From Candidatus Woykebacteria bacterium GWB1_45_5 (GTDB lineage: Bacteria > Patescibacteriota > Microgenomatia > Woykebacterales > RBG-16-39-9b), in NCBI GenBank assembly GCA_001816645.1, contig MHCO01000007.1:169-16502 (forward strand): a stretch of DNA of 16,334 nt, read 5' to 3'. A program made the translations under genes and the position numbers. This document shows positions 1 through 4,975 of the stretch, in pieces. Positions within the stretch are counted from its first letter, which is position 1; each line of letters opens with the position of its first letter. The notes below the pieces were generated by a model. The model did not search any database and had not been told where the DNA came from. It worked only from the letters and a program-made list of their open reading frames with translations.

Positions 1-1304
1 ACAATTGATTTGCCAGCAATAGTAACATATTCCACCTCCTTCTTTAGACGGCTGCCTCGGCATACCTCACAAGTTTCTTCCCGCATATATCTTTCAATTT
101 CCCGCCTCGTCCAATCACTTTCCGTTTCTTTGTAGCGGCGCAAAAGCTCCGGTACCACCCCTTCAAAAGTGGTGTGAAAAGTAATATGGCGGCCAAAACG
201 ATTTCGTCCAGAAACCGGAAAAACTTCTTTCTCAGAACCGTACAAAATTATTTCTAAAGTCTCCCTCGGCAAATCTTTTATTGGTCTCGAAAGAGAAAAC
301 TTTAGATGATCAGCTAAAGCTTCTAGCCGGCGGGTGGTCCAAGTATCATGAGCAAGCATCCGCTGCCAAGGCAAAATAGCTCCTTCGGAAATAGAAAGGT
401 TTTTGTTTTGGATAACCAAATCGGGATCAATAGTAAGTTTCGCGCCAATTCCTTGACAAGCTGAACAGGCTCCGCGAGGAGAGTTAAAAGAAAAAGTCCG
501 AGGTTCTAGCTCGGGTAGGGAAACATCGTGCTCGGGACAAGAAAATTTTTCCGAGTAGGCTTTGTCCGTCCCCCTATCAACATAGTTGACGATCATCACA
601 CCTTCACCCAATCTTAACGCCGTTTCAACCGATTCAGTTAATCTTTGCCGATCAACAGGAATCTCTACTCGATCTACCACCACTTCAATATCATGGATCT
701 TGTAACGATCTAACGATGGTGCCTCATCAATTTCATAAACCTTTTTATCCACCCTTACCCGCACAAAGCCTTTTTTCCGTAGATCCTCAAAAACCTCCTC
801 ATAAATTCCCTTACGACCCTTTACTATCGGCGCTAAGATCAAAATTCTCGCTTTCTGCTGTCTGCTATCTGCTTTCTGATTCATTATTTGATCTACTATC
901 TCCTGCGGCGTTTGCGCTCGGATTTCTTTCCCATCCACCGGACAATGCGGCACGCCTATCCTTGCCCACAAAAGTCGCATATGATCGTAAATTTCGGTAA
1001 TTGTCCCAACTGTCGACCGGGGATTTTTTGAGGCACTCTTTTGATCAATCGAAATCGCTGGCGAAAGACCCTCGATCTGATCAACATCTGGTTTCTCCAT
1101 TAAACCCAAAAACTGCCGGGCGTAGGCTGAAAGTGATTCAACGTAACGTCGTTGTCCTTCGGCATAAAGAGTGTCGAAAGCTAAAGATGACTTACCTGAA
1201 CCAGAAATCCCAGTAATCACAACGAATTTATTCTTTGGGATTTCCAAATCTATATTCTTTAAGTTGTGCTCGCGCGCGCCTCGAATAATAATCTTATCGG
1301 TCAT
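1..1304 (-). CDS. uvrA: UvrA excinuclease ABC subunit A, N-terminal part (cut by left edge)
   Basis: UvrA is the damage-scanning ATPase of nucleotide excision repair; it loads UvrB on DNA. About 434 codons are read from the ATG at 1304 to the window edge without a stop. The start MTDKIIIRGAREHNLKNI is canonical. Walker A GISGSGKS lies at residues 32-39, followed by the family segments LAFDTLYAEGQRRYVESLSA and YARQFLGLMEKPDVD. The UvrB-binding region follows, then a zinc module whose first pair is C-P-E-H rather than C-x-x-C, with the second pair C-S-A-C; ELEPRTFSFNSPRGAC surrounds it. Another Cys pair (CEVC, followed by RGSRLK) lies near the cut end. A four-copy heptamer repeat encodes a small loop insertion (see 851-878). 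No Shine-Dalgarno is seen; a promoter sits immediately upstream. Gene identity is certain; only the C-terminal half is missing. Confidence 0.97.
   Translation of the reverse strand, partial: MTDKIIIRGAREHNLKNIDLEIPKNKFVVITGISGSGKSSLAFDTLYAEGQRRYVESLSAYARQFLGLMEKPDVDQIEGLSPAISIDQKSASKNPRSTVGTITEIYDHMRLLWARIGVPHCPVDGKEIRAQTPQEIVDQIMNQKADSRQQKARILILAPIVKGRKGIYEEVFEDLRKKGFVRVRVDKKVYEIDEAPSLDRYKIHDIEVVVDRVEIPVDRQRLTESVETALRLGEGVMIVNYVDRGTDKAYSEKFSCPEHDVSLPELEPRTFSFNSPRGACSACQGIGAKLTIDPDLVIQNKNLSISEGAILPWQRMLAHDTWTTRRLEALADHLKFSLSRPIKDLPRETLEIILYGSEKEVFPVSGRNRFGRHITFHTTFEGVVPELLRRYKETESDWTRREIERYMREETCEVCRGSRLKKEVEYVTIAGKSI
851..878. repeat. Four tandem heptamers CTNTCTG inside uvrA
   Basis: Four contiguous 7-bp units, CTTTCTG, CTGTCTG, CTATCTG and CTTTCTG (plus strand), lie in frame within uvrA. 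In the protein they give part of the hydrophilic stretch NQKADSRQQKA before LILAP. From memory of E. coli UvrA (VLSQPEGKRLMLLAP at this place), this is an insertion of about five residues in a loop. Since 7 is not a multiple of 3, gain or loss of one unit would shift the frame. Confidence 0.8.
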
Positions 1305-1376: not shown

Positions 1377-1405
1377 TTGACAATGATCTTATTAATAACT
1401 AAAAT
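1377..1405 (+). promoter_or_regulatory. Promoter of structured RNA-1
   Basis: TTGACA (1377-1382), 17-bp spacer, TAAAAT (1400-1405): a near-consensus housekeeping promoter pointing right, divergent from uvrA. No credible ORF follows; what follows is a G+C-rich, stem-rich 400-nt interval. Confidence 0.75.
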
Positions 1406-1411
1406 CTCATT

Positions 1412-1820
1412 AACTTGAGGGAGACAACTTTTGGATTCTCCAGCTGTTCTGCTCGGGTAAGGGGGCAGGCGAGGCCCTAAAACCTTAGTGGAAACCGCTG
1501 GGAATCATAGGACGCGGGGGTGGCGAAAGTATTGGTTGGAGAAGGGGCTACCCACCCGAAACCGACTAGAGGACGTGCTCTTTGCCTTCACCGCGTCCAA
1601 CACCGGCCCTGGAACTTAGTGCTTGGCAGTGAGAGGGGAATCAGCCCCAGTAGATCTCCAAGCCGCCTGAGTTCTGGGGCCAACTGACTCTAAACCGTGA
1701 AGGGGCGCTAGCGGTTTGGAGTAATCACAGGAAGGGGGTGATATTAGAGGGGCCAGGCTCCTTTCCTGCGAATCCGTAACTGTCTGACAGCTCCTGTGTT
1801 GCGTCCCCACAGGAGCATCC
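1412..1820 (+). ncRNA. Structured non-coding RNA-1, family unknown
   Basis: An interval of about 410 nt between divergent uvrA and convergent uvrB, visibly richer in G+C than the flanking genes and without a plausible reading frame. Stems read directly: GGAGA 1420-1424 with 1437-1441; GGACGCGG 1510-1517 with 1591-1598 (8 bp, perfect), enclosing GGGTGG 1518-1523 with 1552-1557; GCCCCAG 1644-1650 with 1674-1680; an 11-bp stem 1687-1697 with 1712-1722 (one G.U); and a final GCTCCTGTG 1790-1798 with 1808-1816, followed by a weak pyrimidine tract. GGACG 1571-1575 can compete for the same CGTCC (1594-1598), so two alternative folds exist. I did not find the RNase P core (GAGGAAAGTCC, ACAGAA), the tmRNA 3' arm with CCA, or SRP domain IV. 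Start and end are inferred from the promoter and last hairpin. It could be a very divergent housekeeping RNA or a new family. Confidence 0.68.
1790..1816. terminator. 9-bp hairpin between convergent 3' ends
   Basis: Perfect 9-bp stem GCTCCTGTG/CACAGGAGC with a 9-nt loop, between the end of RNA-1 and the uvrB stop codon. On the plus strand it is followed by a C/T-rich tract (ATCCCTTCTTCC) instead of a clean U-run, so it may be a 3' end-protecting stem or a weak terminator of RNA-1. Confidence 0.45.
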
Positions 1821-1838
1821 CTTCTTCCAATAGTAAAT

Positions 1839-3866
1839 TTAGGAAATCTTTATCTTACTAGCTTCTTTTGGCGAAATTGTTTTGGGGATTTCAAGATTTT
1901 GATTTTTTATTTCTAGTAACTGATCACGTAAAATTGCGGCTCGTTCGAATTCGAGATTTTTTGCTGAGGAGAGCATTTCTTGGGTTAAATCCCTGATCAA
2001 TTGTCTCACTTGATCCTTGGGCACTTTTGTTAAATCTAGCTCTTGCACCACTTCTGCTTTCGGTTGAATCTCAGCCAGTCGTTCGCTAATATCGTGAATT
2101 GCTTTTTTAATCGTTACAGGCGTGATTTTGTGTTTTTTGTTGTAACCAAGTTGAATTTTCCGCCGACGGTTTGTCTCATCAATCGCCCCTCTCATACTTC
2201 CAGTCTGCTCGTCAGCATACATAATTACCTTCCCCTCAACATGGCGGGCTGCCCTACCAACAGTTTGAATAAGTGCTGTCTTACTTCTCAAAAACCCCTC
2301 TTTATCAGCGTCCAAAATTGCAACCAACGAAACTTCTGGCAGGTCAAGACCTTCGCGAAGTAAGTTGATTCCAACCAACACATCATATTTTCCTTTTCGT
2401 AAATCTCGCAAAATATCCACTCGCTCCAAGGTGTCAACCATATAGTGAATATACATCACTTTGACACCTCTCTCTTGGAGATATTCAGCCAAATCTTCAG
2501 CCATCCTTTTTGTCAAAGTGGTAACCAAAACCCGCTGACCTTTCTTGACCCGGCGATCAATCTCTTCGATTAGATCAGGAATTTGACCTTTTGTTTTTCT
2601 GACTTCAATTTCTGGATCAACGATTCCTGTCGGTCGAATAATTTGTTCTACTACTTGACTAGAACTACTAAGTTCAAATTCATCAGGCGTTGCACTAGTA
2701 AAAATAGCCTGTCTCACTTTTTTCATAAATTCATTAAACGTCAATGGTCGGTTATCCATTGCACTCGGTAAACGAAAACCATTATCAATCAAAACCTCTT
2801 TTCTACTTCGCTCTCCATGCCACATACCACGGATCTGCGGAACGCTCATGTGAGATTCATCAATAAAAATTAATAAATCTTTCGGAAAATAATCCAGCAA
2901 AGTATACGGCGGCTCGCCTGGCAAACGCCCATCGAAATAGCGAGAGTAATTTTCGATCCCTTTAACACTACCGATCTCACGAATCATCTCTAAATCATAA
3001 TTAACTCGTGAAGTTAGCCTTTGCAACTCAACCAGTTTATTTTCTTTTTTTAGTTTCGTGCTCCAGGTTTTAAATTCCTTTTCGATCTCTACCAACGGGT
3101 CATAAGGCAGATCAATCGGCACATTGTAATGGCGGGCCGGAAAGATAGTGATTTCTTCGAGCTCTTCTTCTGGCTCCAAAGTAACCGGGTTTAGTTTGCT
3201 GATTTTTTCAACTTTTTCGCCGAAAAAGGAGAGCCGAACGGCAAACTCTTCGTAAGCGGGATAAATTTCTAAGATATCGCCTTTGACTCGAAAAGTCGCC
3301 CGCTTTAAATCAAAATCGTTTCGTTCATATTGCAAACGGATAAGTTGTTCTTTGATCTGGCCAATCGGTAAAATCTGATTTTTAAATAAAGTCCGTGTAC
3401 TTTGCCTGTAAGCAGTCGGCGAACCGATGTTGTAAATACAAGAAACACTGGCGACAATCAAAACGTCTCTGCGTGTCAATAAGGATTTTGTTGCGGCTAG
3501 GCGCAACCGGTCGATTTCCTCATTTATATCAGCGTCTTTTTCAATATAAAGATCAATTTGAGGCACGTAGCTTTCCGGTTGGTAATAATCGTAGTAAGAA
3601 ACAAAATATTCGACTGCATTATTTGGGAAAAACTCTCTAAATTCCGCAGCAAGCTGTGCAGCCAAAGTTTTATTGTGAGCAATCACCAAAGTCGGTCGGT
3701 TTAACTTGGCAACTATATTAGCCATGGTAAAAGTCTTACCGGTCCCAGTCGCTCCCAAAAGAGTCTGAAATGGATACTTTCTATTCAACCCATCAACTAA
3801 TTTTTCAATCGCCAGCGGCTGATCACCAGTTGGCGGCCACGGAGATTTCAGCTCAAATTTATCCAC
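1839..3866 (-). CDS. uvrB: UvrB excinuclease ABC subunit B
   Basis: UvrB is the DNA-opening, damage-verifying subunit of nucleotide excision repair; it receives DNA from UvrA and recruits UvrC. At 675 residues it is of usual length (E. coli 673). Visible are the opening GDQP (14-17), Walker A GATGTGKT (38-45), the Tyr-rich beta-hairpin YYDYYQPESYVP (91-102) used to clamp the strand, the Walker B box FIDESH (about 334-339), the later helicase motifs including LREGLDLPEVSLV and QTVGRAARH, and a C-terminal UVR domain (about 626-658) for UvrC contact. The start is GTG at 3866, fitting the family N-terminus. It has no Shine-Dalgarno; a TAAAAT -10 box ends 9 nt upstream. The gene follows directly on the terminator of RNA-2. 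Confidence 0.98.
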   Translation of the reverse strand: MDKFELKSPWPPTGDQPLAIEKLVDGLNRKYPFQTLLGATGTGKTFTMANIVAKLNRPTLVIAHNKTLAAQLAAEFREFFPNNAVEYFVSYYDYYQPESYVPQIDLYIEKDADINEEIDRLRLAATKSLLTRRDVLIVASVSCIYNIGSPTAYRQSTRTLFKNQILPIGQIKEQLIRLQYERNDFDLKRATFRVKGDILEIYPAYEEFAVRLSFFGEKVEKISKLNPVTLEPEEELEEITIFPARHYNVPIDLPYDPLVEIEKEFKTWSTKLKKENKLVELQRLTSRVNYDLEMIREIGSVKGIENYSRYFDGRLPGEPPYTLLDYFPKDLLIFIDESHMSVPQIRGMWHGERSRKEVLIDNGFRLPSAMDNRPLTFNEFMKKVRQAIFTSATPDEFELSSSSQVVEQIIRPTGIVDPEIEVRKTKGQIPDLIEEIDRRVKKGQRVLVTTLTKRMAEDLAEYLQERGVKVMYIHYMVDTLERVDILRDLRKGKYDVLVGINLLREGLDLPEVSLVAILDADKEGFLRSKTALIQTVGRAARHVEGKVIMYADEQTGSMRGAIDETNRRRKIQLGYNKKHKITPVTIKKAIHDISERLAEIQPKAEVVQELDLTKVPKDQVRQLIRDLTQEMLSSAKNLEFERAAILRDQLLEIKNQNLEIPKTISPKEASKIKIS

Positions 3867-3875
3867 TAGGAATCT

Positions 3876-3881
3876 ATTTTA
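3876..3881 (-). promoter_or_regulatory. Candidate -10 box for leaderless uvrB
   Basis: TAAAAT on the minus strand, 9 nt before the uvrB GTG and directly after the T-tract of the RNA-2 terminator. The matching -35 position falls in the terminator stem and is a poor match (TGGCTG). If active, the mRNA would begin within a few nt of the start codon. The alternative is read-through from RNA-2. Confidence 0.4.
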
Positions 3882-3885
3882 ACTC

Positions 3886-3942
3886 AAAAAGAAAACCGCA
3901 GCCAGAGCCGTGTAACTGGCGGTTACACATTTCTAGCTGCGG
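3886..3942 (-). terminator. Intrinsic terminator of RNA-2
   Basis: Stem CCGCAGC/GCTGCGG (3936-3942 with 3896-3902) encloses a second stem GTGTAAC/GTTACAC (3922-3928 with 3910-3916), and the outer stem is followed on the minus strand by TTTTCTTTTT. Polarity fixes the transcript direction as leftward. It lies 20 nt before the uvrB start codon, so it could also act as an attenuator. Confidence 0.8.
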
Positions 3943-4247
3943 AACGTGTTGTCTTGGCAGGAGAGCCCGGGTACAACCAGCAACTTTCCAGGAAGGTGCC
4001 TTCGGGAATGCGAGAACCCTATCTGGTTCCTTATCGAAATAGGCTCGATCTCTCCTGCCAGCTTCACCAAGTGACACATCATCTCCCCAGAACTGTGCCA
4101 CTCAGATCAGCCAAGTTAATTGAAAGCGCTATTTTTGGCGCTCTTAGGCCGACAGCACTTTTGGTTTAGCTTTAGGCTCCTTAAGGAACCAAGGTCCCAA
4201 GCCCCTTCCGGCCACCGACCAAGCCAGACGCCAAAGGTGCTGTCGGC
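3886..4247 (-). ncRNA. Structured non-coding RNA-2, family unknown
   Basis: An interval of about 360 nt with its own promoter and intrinsic terminator, between lexA (divergent) and uvrB (downstream, same strand). Stems seen: GCCGACAGCAC 4247-4237 with 4158-4148 (11 bp, perfect, closing a 100-nt domain); AGCGC with GCGCT near 4126-4142; GTGGCACA 4101-4094 with 4078-4071 (one G.U); GGCAGGAGAG 4059-4050 with 3965-3956 (10 bp, perfect, closing a 104-nt domain that includes AACCAG/CTGGTT); and the terminator. The predicted first nucleotide (4247) is exactly the first base of the first stem. The first domain carries a CCGGAAGG tip like SRP RNA but lacks the required AGCAG. RNase P and tmRNA signatures are absent. 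It may be a trans-acting RNA or a long uvrB leader. Confidence 0.72.
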
Positions 4248-4253
4248 AAAGTA

Positions 4254-4282
4254 AATTTAAAACAAAGCAATATGTTTGTCAA
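4254..4282 (-). promoter_or_regulatory. Promoter of structured RNA-2
   Basis: Minus-strand TTGACA (4282-4277), 17-bp spacer, TAAATT (4259-4254). Transcription starting after a 6-nt gap gives a first base G at 4247, where the first RNA stem begins. It diverges from the lexA promoter; the two -35 regions form the inverted repeat TGTCAAC (4277-4283) and GTTGACA (4318-4324). Confidence 0.72.
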
Positions 4283-4310
4283 CTACCTAATGACCTATTT
4301 TGATATATTT

Positions 4311-4329
4311 ATAATTGGTTGACAATTAT
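4311..4329. promoter_or_regulatory. Candidate LexA operator over the lexA -35 box
   Basis: Perfect 19-bp inverted repeat ATAATTGgttgaCAATTAT: 7-bp arms and a 5-bp centre, covering the lexA -35 hexamer. LexA normally represses its own gene by binding a palindrome at the promoter, so position and symmetry fit. I found no exact second copy at uvrA, uvrB or RNA-1, and the motif differs from the E. coli and Bacillus boxes, so the operator role is inferred. Confidence 0.5.
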
Positions 4330-4347
4330 CCGAAAAATAACCATAAT
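4319..4347 (+). promoter_or_regulatory. lexA promoter, leaderless
   Basis: TTGACA (4319-4324), 17-bp spacer, CATAAT (4342-4347). The -10 box ends 10 nt before the ATG at 4358, so the transcript would begin 3-4 nt before the start codon. An in-frame TTG at 4319 is the -35 box itself and cannot be the translation start. Confidence 0.75.
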
Positions 4348-4357
4348 AAAAATTGTA

Positions 4358-4975
4358 ATGGCCTACGTTGTCTATAAAAGAGAACGAGATCTTCTTGAAT
4401 TTATTTCCCAATATCTACAAAAGCATGGGTTTGCTCCCACTTTAGCCGAAATTTGTGATGGTTTGGGCCTTCGCTCCCCTGCTACCGCTCACGAACATAT
4501 TCAGAACCTAATCGAAAAAGGCATTTTAAAAAAAGAAGAAGGGGCCCGGCGGGGTTTAGAAATCGTCGATCAAAAAGTCCTTGGTTGGGTCCAAACTACT
4601 GTTGAAGTCCCTTTAATTGGTAAAATTGCTGCTGGTACACCTATCGAGGCGATCAGTGACCACACAGCCGCTGTCAACGTTCCGCCGGATATTATTGGTA
4701 AAAAGAAATGTTTTGCCCTGCAGGTTCGAGGAAATAGCATGGTAGAAGCAGCAATTTTGGATGGTGATTTCGTCATTTGCGAAGAAACCAGCGAAGCCAG
4801 TAATGGTGATATCGTTGTCGCTTTGCTTAACGAGAATTTTGCCACCCTCAAACGATTTTATAGAGAAAGCGATCATATCCGTCTTGAACCAGCCAACTCA
4901 TCGATGAATCCGATTATCACCAAAAACGCTACGGTGCAGGGTAAGGTCGTCGGGGTAATCAGGAAGTATCATTAG
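4358..4975 (+). CDS. lexA: LexA SOS repressor / S24 autopeptidase
   Basis: LexA represses DNA-damage genes and cleaves itself when RecA filaments form. The protein is 205 residues from the ATG at 4358 (MAYVVYKRER). A winged helix-turn-helix occupies about 1-70 (family segments PTLAEICDGLGLRS and ATAHEHIQNLIEKGIL). The peptidase half has the Ala-Gly cleavage bond at 92-93 in IGKIAAGTP, catalytic Ser127 in GNSMVEAAILDGD, and catalytic Lys165 in ATLKRF. All key residues are present, so autocleavage should work. The gene lies back-to-back with RNA-2/uvrB and close to uvrA, typical SOS targets. There is no Shine-Dalgarno. Its stop codon lies 3 nt from that of the convergent transporter gene. Confidence 0.96.
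   Translation: MAYVVYKRERDLLEFISQYLQKHGFAPTLAEICDGLGLRSPATAHEHIQNLIEKGILKKEEGARRGLEIVDQKVLGWVQTTVEVPLIGKIAAGTPIEAISDHTAAVNVPPDIIGKKKCFALQVRGNSMVEAAILDGDFVICEETSEASNGDIVVALLNENFATLKRFYRESDHIRLEPANSSMNPIITKNATVQGKVVGVIRKYH

Follow-up and report, generated by a model that had tools for sequence, protein, structure and literature searches.

What is the strongly folded sequence that lies between the divergent lexA gene and uvrB in Candidatus Woykebacteria bacterium GWB1_45_5: an RNA gene, a leader of uvrB, a small coding cassette, or simply hairpin-rich intergenic DNA? Structured RNAs of CPR bacteria are, to our knowledge, poorly catalogued, and this region, called RNA-2 here, is a testable new case in which a homolog allows the fold to be checked. 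"The window" below is the whole 16,334 nt stretch of DNA that was analyzed, and G000 is the genome from which it comes.

Layout and folding of the lexA-uvrB gap

The features of the region, in the direction of RNA-2, are as follows.

4319..4975, plus strand: lexA (NCBIfam TIGR00498), divergent from and upstream of RNA-2; start probably at 4361
4254..4282, minus strand: putative sigma-70-like promoter of RNA-2, TTGACA-17-TAAATT (TTGACA 4282-4277, TAAATT 4259-4254), 10/12 matches
3886..4247, minus strand: RNA-2, putative transcript of 362 nt, ends predicted from sequence
4148..4247, minus strand: domain I, closed by a perfect 11-bp stem (arms 4247-4237 and 4158-4148)
4122..4144, minus strand: small linker hairpin of the minimum-energy fold, position approximate; contains GAGCGCC and AGCGCTTTC
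4069..4103, minus strand: hairpin GAGTGGCAC/TGTGTCACTT of the minimum-energy fold
3956..4059, minus strand: domain II, closed by the perfect 10-bp stem GGCAGGAGAG/CTCTCCTGCC
3896..3942, minus strand: terminal hairpin CCGCAGCTAGA...TCTGGCTGCGG, the best-conserved part of RNA-2
3886..3895, minus strand: T-tract TTTTCTTTTT, directly after the terminal hairpin, as read from the sequence
3876..3881, minus strand: -10-like element TAAAAT of uvrB, 9 nt ahead of its start codon
1839..3866, minus strand: uvrB (NCBIfam NF003673), downstream of RNA-2 and in the same orientation

The promoter, the two stem-closed domains and the terminator-like end that the initial annotation had described are thus all present on the minus strand, from 4247 to 3886. 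The terminal hairpin is made of 11 pairs (one of them G-U) around an inner 8-bp hairpin. The predicted fold of RNA-2 has an energy of -164 kcal/mol (z -7.0), and none of 100 shuffled sequences is equally stable; the opposite strand reaches -141.5 (z -5.9), so the strand preference is modest, the minus strand folding better yet both strands folding well. RNA-2 is present once in G000, and its G+C content of 53% compares with 42.5% in the window as a whole and 23% in the remainder of the lexA-uvrB gap. The promoter match is weak on its own, because the four promoter-like sites in positions 3600-4700 are not clearly above the number in shuffled sequence (1.7, sd 1.4). A terminator scan of the region did not return the RNA-2 terminal hairpin, probably because that scan requires a 3-8-base loop inside the stem that meets the T-run. 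The LexA protein encoded here shares 80% identity with its counterpart in Candidatus Woykebacteria RBG_16_39_9b.

Comparison with known RNA classes

The same annotation had offered two possibilities for RNA-2, an undescribed RNA family or a very divergent housekeeping RNA, and had suggested a search of Rfam. When this was done (Rfam 15, permissive thresholds, for the window and for the RNA-2 region alone), nothing came near any cut-off, RNase P RNA and tmRNA included; the best score in the RNA-2 region is 18.8 bits, against a cut-off of 80, and the homologous loci L112 and L002 of the relatives discussed below give no family match either. RNase P RNA (RF00010) is close to RNA-2 in length, and both are multi-domain and strongly folded. 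RNA-2 was rejected as a candidate for it, the window having no RF00010 match up to E 10 and G000 carrying its copy on another contig (C39:8595-8978, 72.9 bits, E 1.2e-22). The RNase P RNA scores under the Rfam cut-off in six of the seven genomes of the family (L071-L077), and one study of other CPR bacteria reports that its detection needed lowered thresholds (PMC8172020). Similarly, tmRNA (RF00023) has a length close to that of RNA-2, and this candidate was also set aside: ARAGORN found 0 tmRNA genes in the window, and the G000 tmRNA sits on C52 (43273-43629, 130.7 bits).

SRP RNA, like domain I of RNA-2, has a GGAA-capped hairpin, which was not seen by eye in the homolog in genome G007. The window has no match to RF00169 or RF01854, and RNA-2 was not found in four of the seven family genomes, so RNA-2 is too patchily distributed to be the missing SRP RNA of this group. 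Neither SRP model reached its cut-off in any of the seven; G000 gave nothing, the only sub-threshold match was in G005 (15.5 bits, E 1.0), and a scan for the SRP tip pattern gave many matches, none convincing by eye. The SRP RNA of these genomes is either very divergent or missing.

The large, ornate bacterial RNAs GOLLD, ROOL and OLE, as well as raiA/ModT, have Rfam models, and GOLLD and ROOL are longer than RNA-2. They are, like RNA-2, orphan and highly folded (PMC12286853, PMC11706538), but the window gives no match to any Rfam family. A literature search found no paper joining Woykebacteria and noncoding RNA and nothing on the lexA-uvrB locus. The suggestion of an undescribed RNA family is supported by the lack of any near-cut-off Rfam match together with a homolog in the same place in a second genus. 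The housekeeping alternative did not hold up, as G000 has its RNase P RNA and tmRNA elsewhere and RNA-2 was found in only three of the seven family genomes.

Homologs and distribution in the family

RNA-2 relatives were searched for at the DNA level in 10 genomes of the order and in 373 sampled genomes of the class. Besides chance pieces, this search returned only the 3' 86 nt of RNA-2 in G006 (80% identity, between lexA and uvrB) and a terminator core beside clpP in G006 and G009. What is new here is a homolog, as judged from sequence comparison, in G007, which belongs to a second genus of the same CPR family; it lies in the 962-nt lexA-uvrB gap in the same place and orientation, was missed by the sequence search, and was found by reading the lexA-uvrB gaps of relatives. 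The G000 and G007 sequences have in common, in this order, GCCGACAG.ACC, GTGCTGT.GGC, GGCAGGAGAG, CTCCTGCC, CAACACGT, CGCAGCTAGAAA and CTCTGGCTGCG. Their local alignment scores 97.0, and none of 500 shuffles reaches this value (mean 52.9, sd 6.5, maximum 77.9); as a control, the unrelated RNA-1 (described below) scores 52.5 against G007. The G000-G006 alignment scores 93.1 (again 0/500 shuffles reach it), and that of G006 with G007 scores 71.4, just over the best of 500 shuffles (70.7). The G006 sequence is a probable third copy that retains the 3' half of RNA-2, and the same place and orientation between lexA and uvrB recur in three genera.

G007 has counterparts of the domain I arms, of domain II and of the terminal hairpin. 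The 5' arm of its domain II stem is wholly identical to that of G000, and the 3' arm is identical at 8 of 10 bases. Its domain I is 178 nt long (L112 1002-825), compared with 100 nt in G000; when this domain is folded by itself, 11 of 12 positions at its ends pair (8 + 3 bp with one mismatch), a result that 208 of 100,000 shuffles of one arm match, and in the minimum-energy fold of the whole 611-nt G007 RNA this stem is absent. G006 has a domain II-like stem and the terminal hairpin without domain I. The z-scores are -5.43 for the G007 RNA (20 shuffles) and -3.86 for that of G006 (200 shuffles), and the T-tract is good in G000 and G006 and poor in G007.

In the terminal hairpin, pairing is kept in 96.1% of 51 cells over the three sequences, with one change from C-G to G-C. 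Changes on both sides thus occur in 1 of 17 pairs, and 178 of 500 shuffles do as well with these three sequences; there are too few compensatory changes to establish the fold, and the covariation is not significant. An apparent covariation in domain II of G006 (ACCAGGA/TCCTGGT) was dropped since the stem can also pair in another register, CAGGAG/CTCCTG, which the aligner preferred in one alignment out of two. G007 is misplaced in the automatic alignments A1, A3 and A4, and its terminal hairpin in A2; these were excluded from the counts. The structure of RNA-2 is supported by its energy and by the shared arms and their order, not by compensation, and with three sequences a stronger structural statement is out of reach.

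A hairpin model, R1, was built from the terminal hairpins of G000, G006 and G007. Its scores on these three homologs are circular, and homology therefore rests on the pairwise alignments against shuffles. Within the class, R1 matches 15 of the 373 genomes at E 0.05 or better, namely the three homologs and 12 further genomes at 17-22 bits; uvrB or lexA is present in none of these 12 weaker loci (2.0-3.1 kb each), one of which is the terminator beside clpP in G009. This RNA-2-end-like sequence, GTTACRCGGCTCTGGCT, folds into a terminator-like hairpin that follows a short ORF adjacent to clpP (L003 1501-1535 and L004 1501-1535, in G009 and G006), and a family search confirmed the clpP neighbors.

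RNA-2 is thus found in three of the seven family genomes (G000, G006 and G007). Shorter lexA-uvrB gaps occur in G004, G005 and G009, and no RNA-2 was seen on reading them; in G008 the gap holds short ORFs where the other genera carry RNA-2 or nothing. Several of these ORFs, on the uvrB strand, are overlapped by a longer frame on the opposite strand (L140 86-1500). With the G007 RNA as query, only that RNA and, beyond the family, two short matches of 24 and 33 nt were returned, and no convincing RNA-2 copy was found outside the family in the 373 sampled genomes. On inspection by eye, a 30-nt match in G190, adjacent to rRNA-like sequence, and a coding-like match of 21 nt in G031 were put down to chance. 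A phage or plasmid origin was also considered and rejected, the matches being at E 1 or worse and covering at most 9% of the query; on viral contigs there were two exact 17-mer matches, the number expected by chance on a rough estimate, and no match to two longer patterns. Because it was not found in four of the seven family genomes and has no convincing copy outside the family among the sampled genomes of the class, RNA-2 is a lineage-specific orphan, patchily kept at a variable spot, and not a housekeeping RNA.

Alternative explanations and possible role

Our best explanation, to which we give even odds, is that RNA-2 is a noncoding RNA gene in its own right, with a terminal hairpin that additionally serves as a recognition element. 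The stability of the fold, the shared place and the homology are established here, and the transcript, its termination and an action in trans as RNA are inferred. The gene would belong to one CPR (Woykebacteria-like) family, in which some genera have retained it and others have lost or replaced it. Transcription would begin at its own promoter within the lexA-uvrB gap, the RNA would fold into domains I and II and the terminal hairpin, and transcription would end just ahead of uvrB, which has its own start signal. The two stem-closed domains may be a variable scaffold, and the terminal hairpin most likely doubles as a site recognized by a protein or by a second RNA; this second role is suggested by the conservation of the sequence of both arms beyond what termination needs and by the weak T-tract of G007.

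The orientation of uvrB raises another possibility. Leader attenuators and riboswitches as a class place a hairpin and T-tract directly ahead of a co-oriented gene, and RNA-2 shares this arrangement; it could be a long 5' leader of uvrB, in which the terminal hairpin halts transcription except when overridden by an alternative pairing or a bound factor (attenuation). All three homologs are oriented in this way with the hairpin just before uvrB, and G000 and G006 have good T-tracts. However, a -10-like element of uvrB lies between the hairpin and the start codon and is likewise found in many relatives without RNA-2, conservation sits in the hairpin and not in an upstream aptamer, and there is no Rfam riboswitch match. 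The element adjoins the uvrB start in 15 of 27 rows, against 12% in shuffles (14 of 25 without duplicates), in relatives with or without RNA-2; the 27 rows include the duplicate pairs L011/L111 and L012/L142, and some of their start codons are mislocated (e.g., L012, L141 and L142). No Shine-Dalgarno-like string precedes uvrB in any of the 27. With its own -10-like element and no such string, uvrB is probably leaderless, with an independent start, and RNA-2 would then probably be a separate transcript; we regard the attenuator reading as fairly unlikely.

RNA-2 could also be the mRNA, or a decayed remnant, of a small-protein cassette at a variable lexA-uvrB spot, a reading that we consider unlikely. 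It would account for the short ORFs of G008, which are on the uvrB strand, encode up to 164 aa and stand at the place of RNA-2, for a 56-codon GTG frame across the G006 region, for the RNA-2-end-like sequence after a short ORF beside clpP in G006 and G009, and for a weak R1 match in G008, on the hairpin that immediately precedes uvrB (15.0 bits, E 0.018 for 77 kb). Other observations speak against it. The 75-codon frame of G000 reads through the terminator, and a translated comparison of G000 with G007 gives nothing above chance (best E 0.099); the translated G000-G006 matches (best E 2e-7) fall on the hairpin-bearing 3' end in several frames of both strands, as expected from conserved DNA. 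A Pfam run on three short frames gave no match for the 75-codon frame of G000 or the 56-codon frame of G006, and what G000 and G007 have in common is the stem arms.

It is very unlikely, in our judgment, that the stems act at the DNA level or are neutral, RNA-2 being a hairpin-rich intergenic insert of a kind common in G000, since it is single copy and its arms and their order are retained in another genus. Such regions are nevertheless frequent in this genome, and the opposite strand of RNA-2 also folds well. A rough scan of G000 (20 shuffles per z, genes called only as long ORFs) found 213 intergenic regions of at least 200 nt, of which 211 were scored in 160-nt windows, and 51 had a window with z below -4. 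Repeats account for 23 of these windows and tRNAs for three; the remaining 25 are single copy and non-tRNA, and they include one in RNA-2 and one in the RNase P RNA region, mostly past the 3' end of that RNA. The RNA-2 region ranks 40th, its best window being on the plus strand over domain I, and RNA-1 ranks 88th. RNA-2 is therefore not a singular object of the SOS locus, and it points to a genome with 25 single-copy, non-tRNA windows among its 51 strongly structured intergenic ones, most of the 25 lacking an explanation.

RNA-2 had also been proposed to be tied to the SOS locus. This applies to its position, a place common to three of the seven family genomes, and no link beyond location was found. 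The string CCGAA/TTCGG of many lexA promoters is absent from the RNA-2 promoter. This is a weak test, as TTCGG itself is present in 17 of 33 lexA upstream regions, and no LexA operator has been established for this group. A more far-reaching thought, which we consider improbable, is that RNA-2 might be a damage-linked CPR RNA of a new kind, three-part and kept beside uvrB, with its hairpin GTTACACGGCTCTGGCT a mobile recognition and termination module that is also placed downstream of other genes, for instance the one next to clpP.

Other structured regions of these genomes may be mentioned here. RNA-1 lies between uvrA and uvrB in the window (1390-1830, plus strand); it folds with z -5.26 (minus strand -0.87), has 54% G+C and no Rfam match. 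On contig 12 of G000 there is a single-copy folded stretch of about 370 nt (L027 4445-4830, minus strand, z -7.36) with a promoter-like start and a terminator-like end by eye and no Rfam match at the gathering threshold. G000 also carries dispersed short repeats with strong hairpins (e.g., L067 6389-6598), and one such window matches the genome at 45 further positions. The uvrA-uvrB gap of G006 has a promoter-like start and folded domains (z -2.89, 20 shuffles) with no sequence similarity to RNA-1, and it contains a small ORF (L010, about 390-710, plus strand) that looks by eye like a winged-helix regulator.
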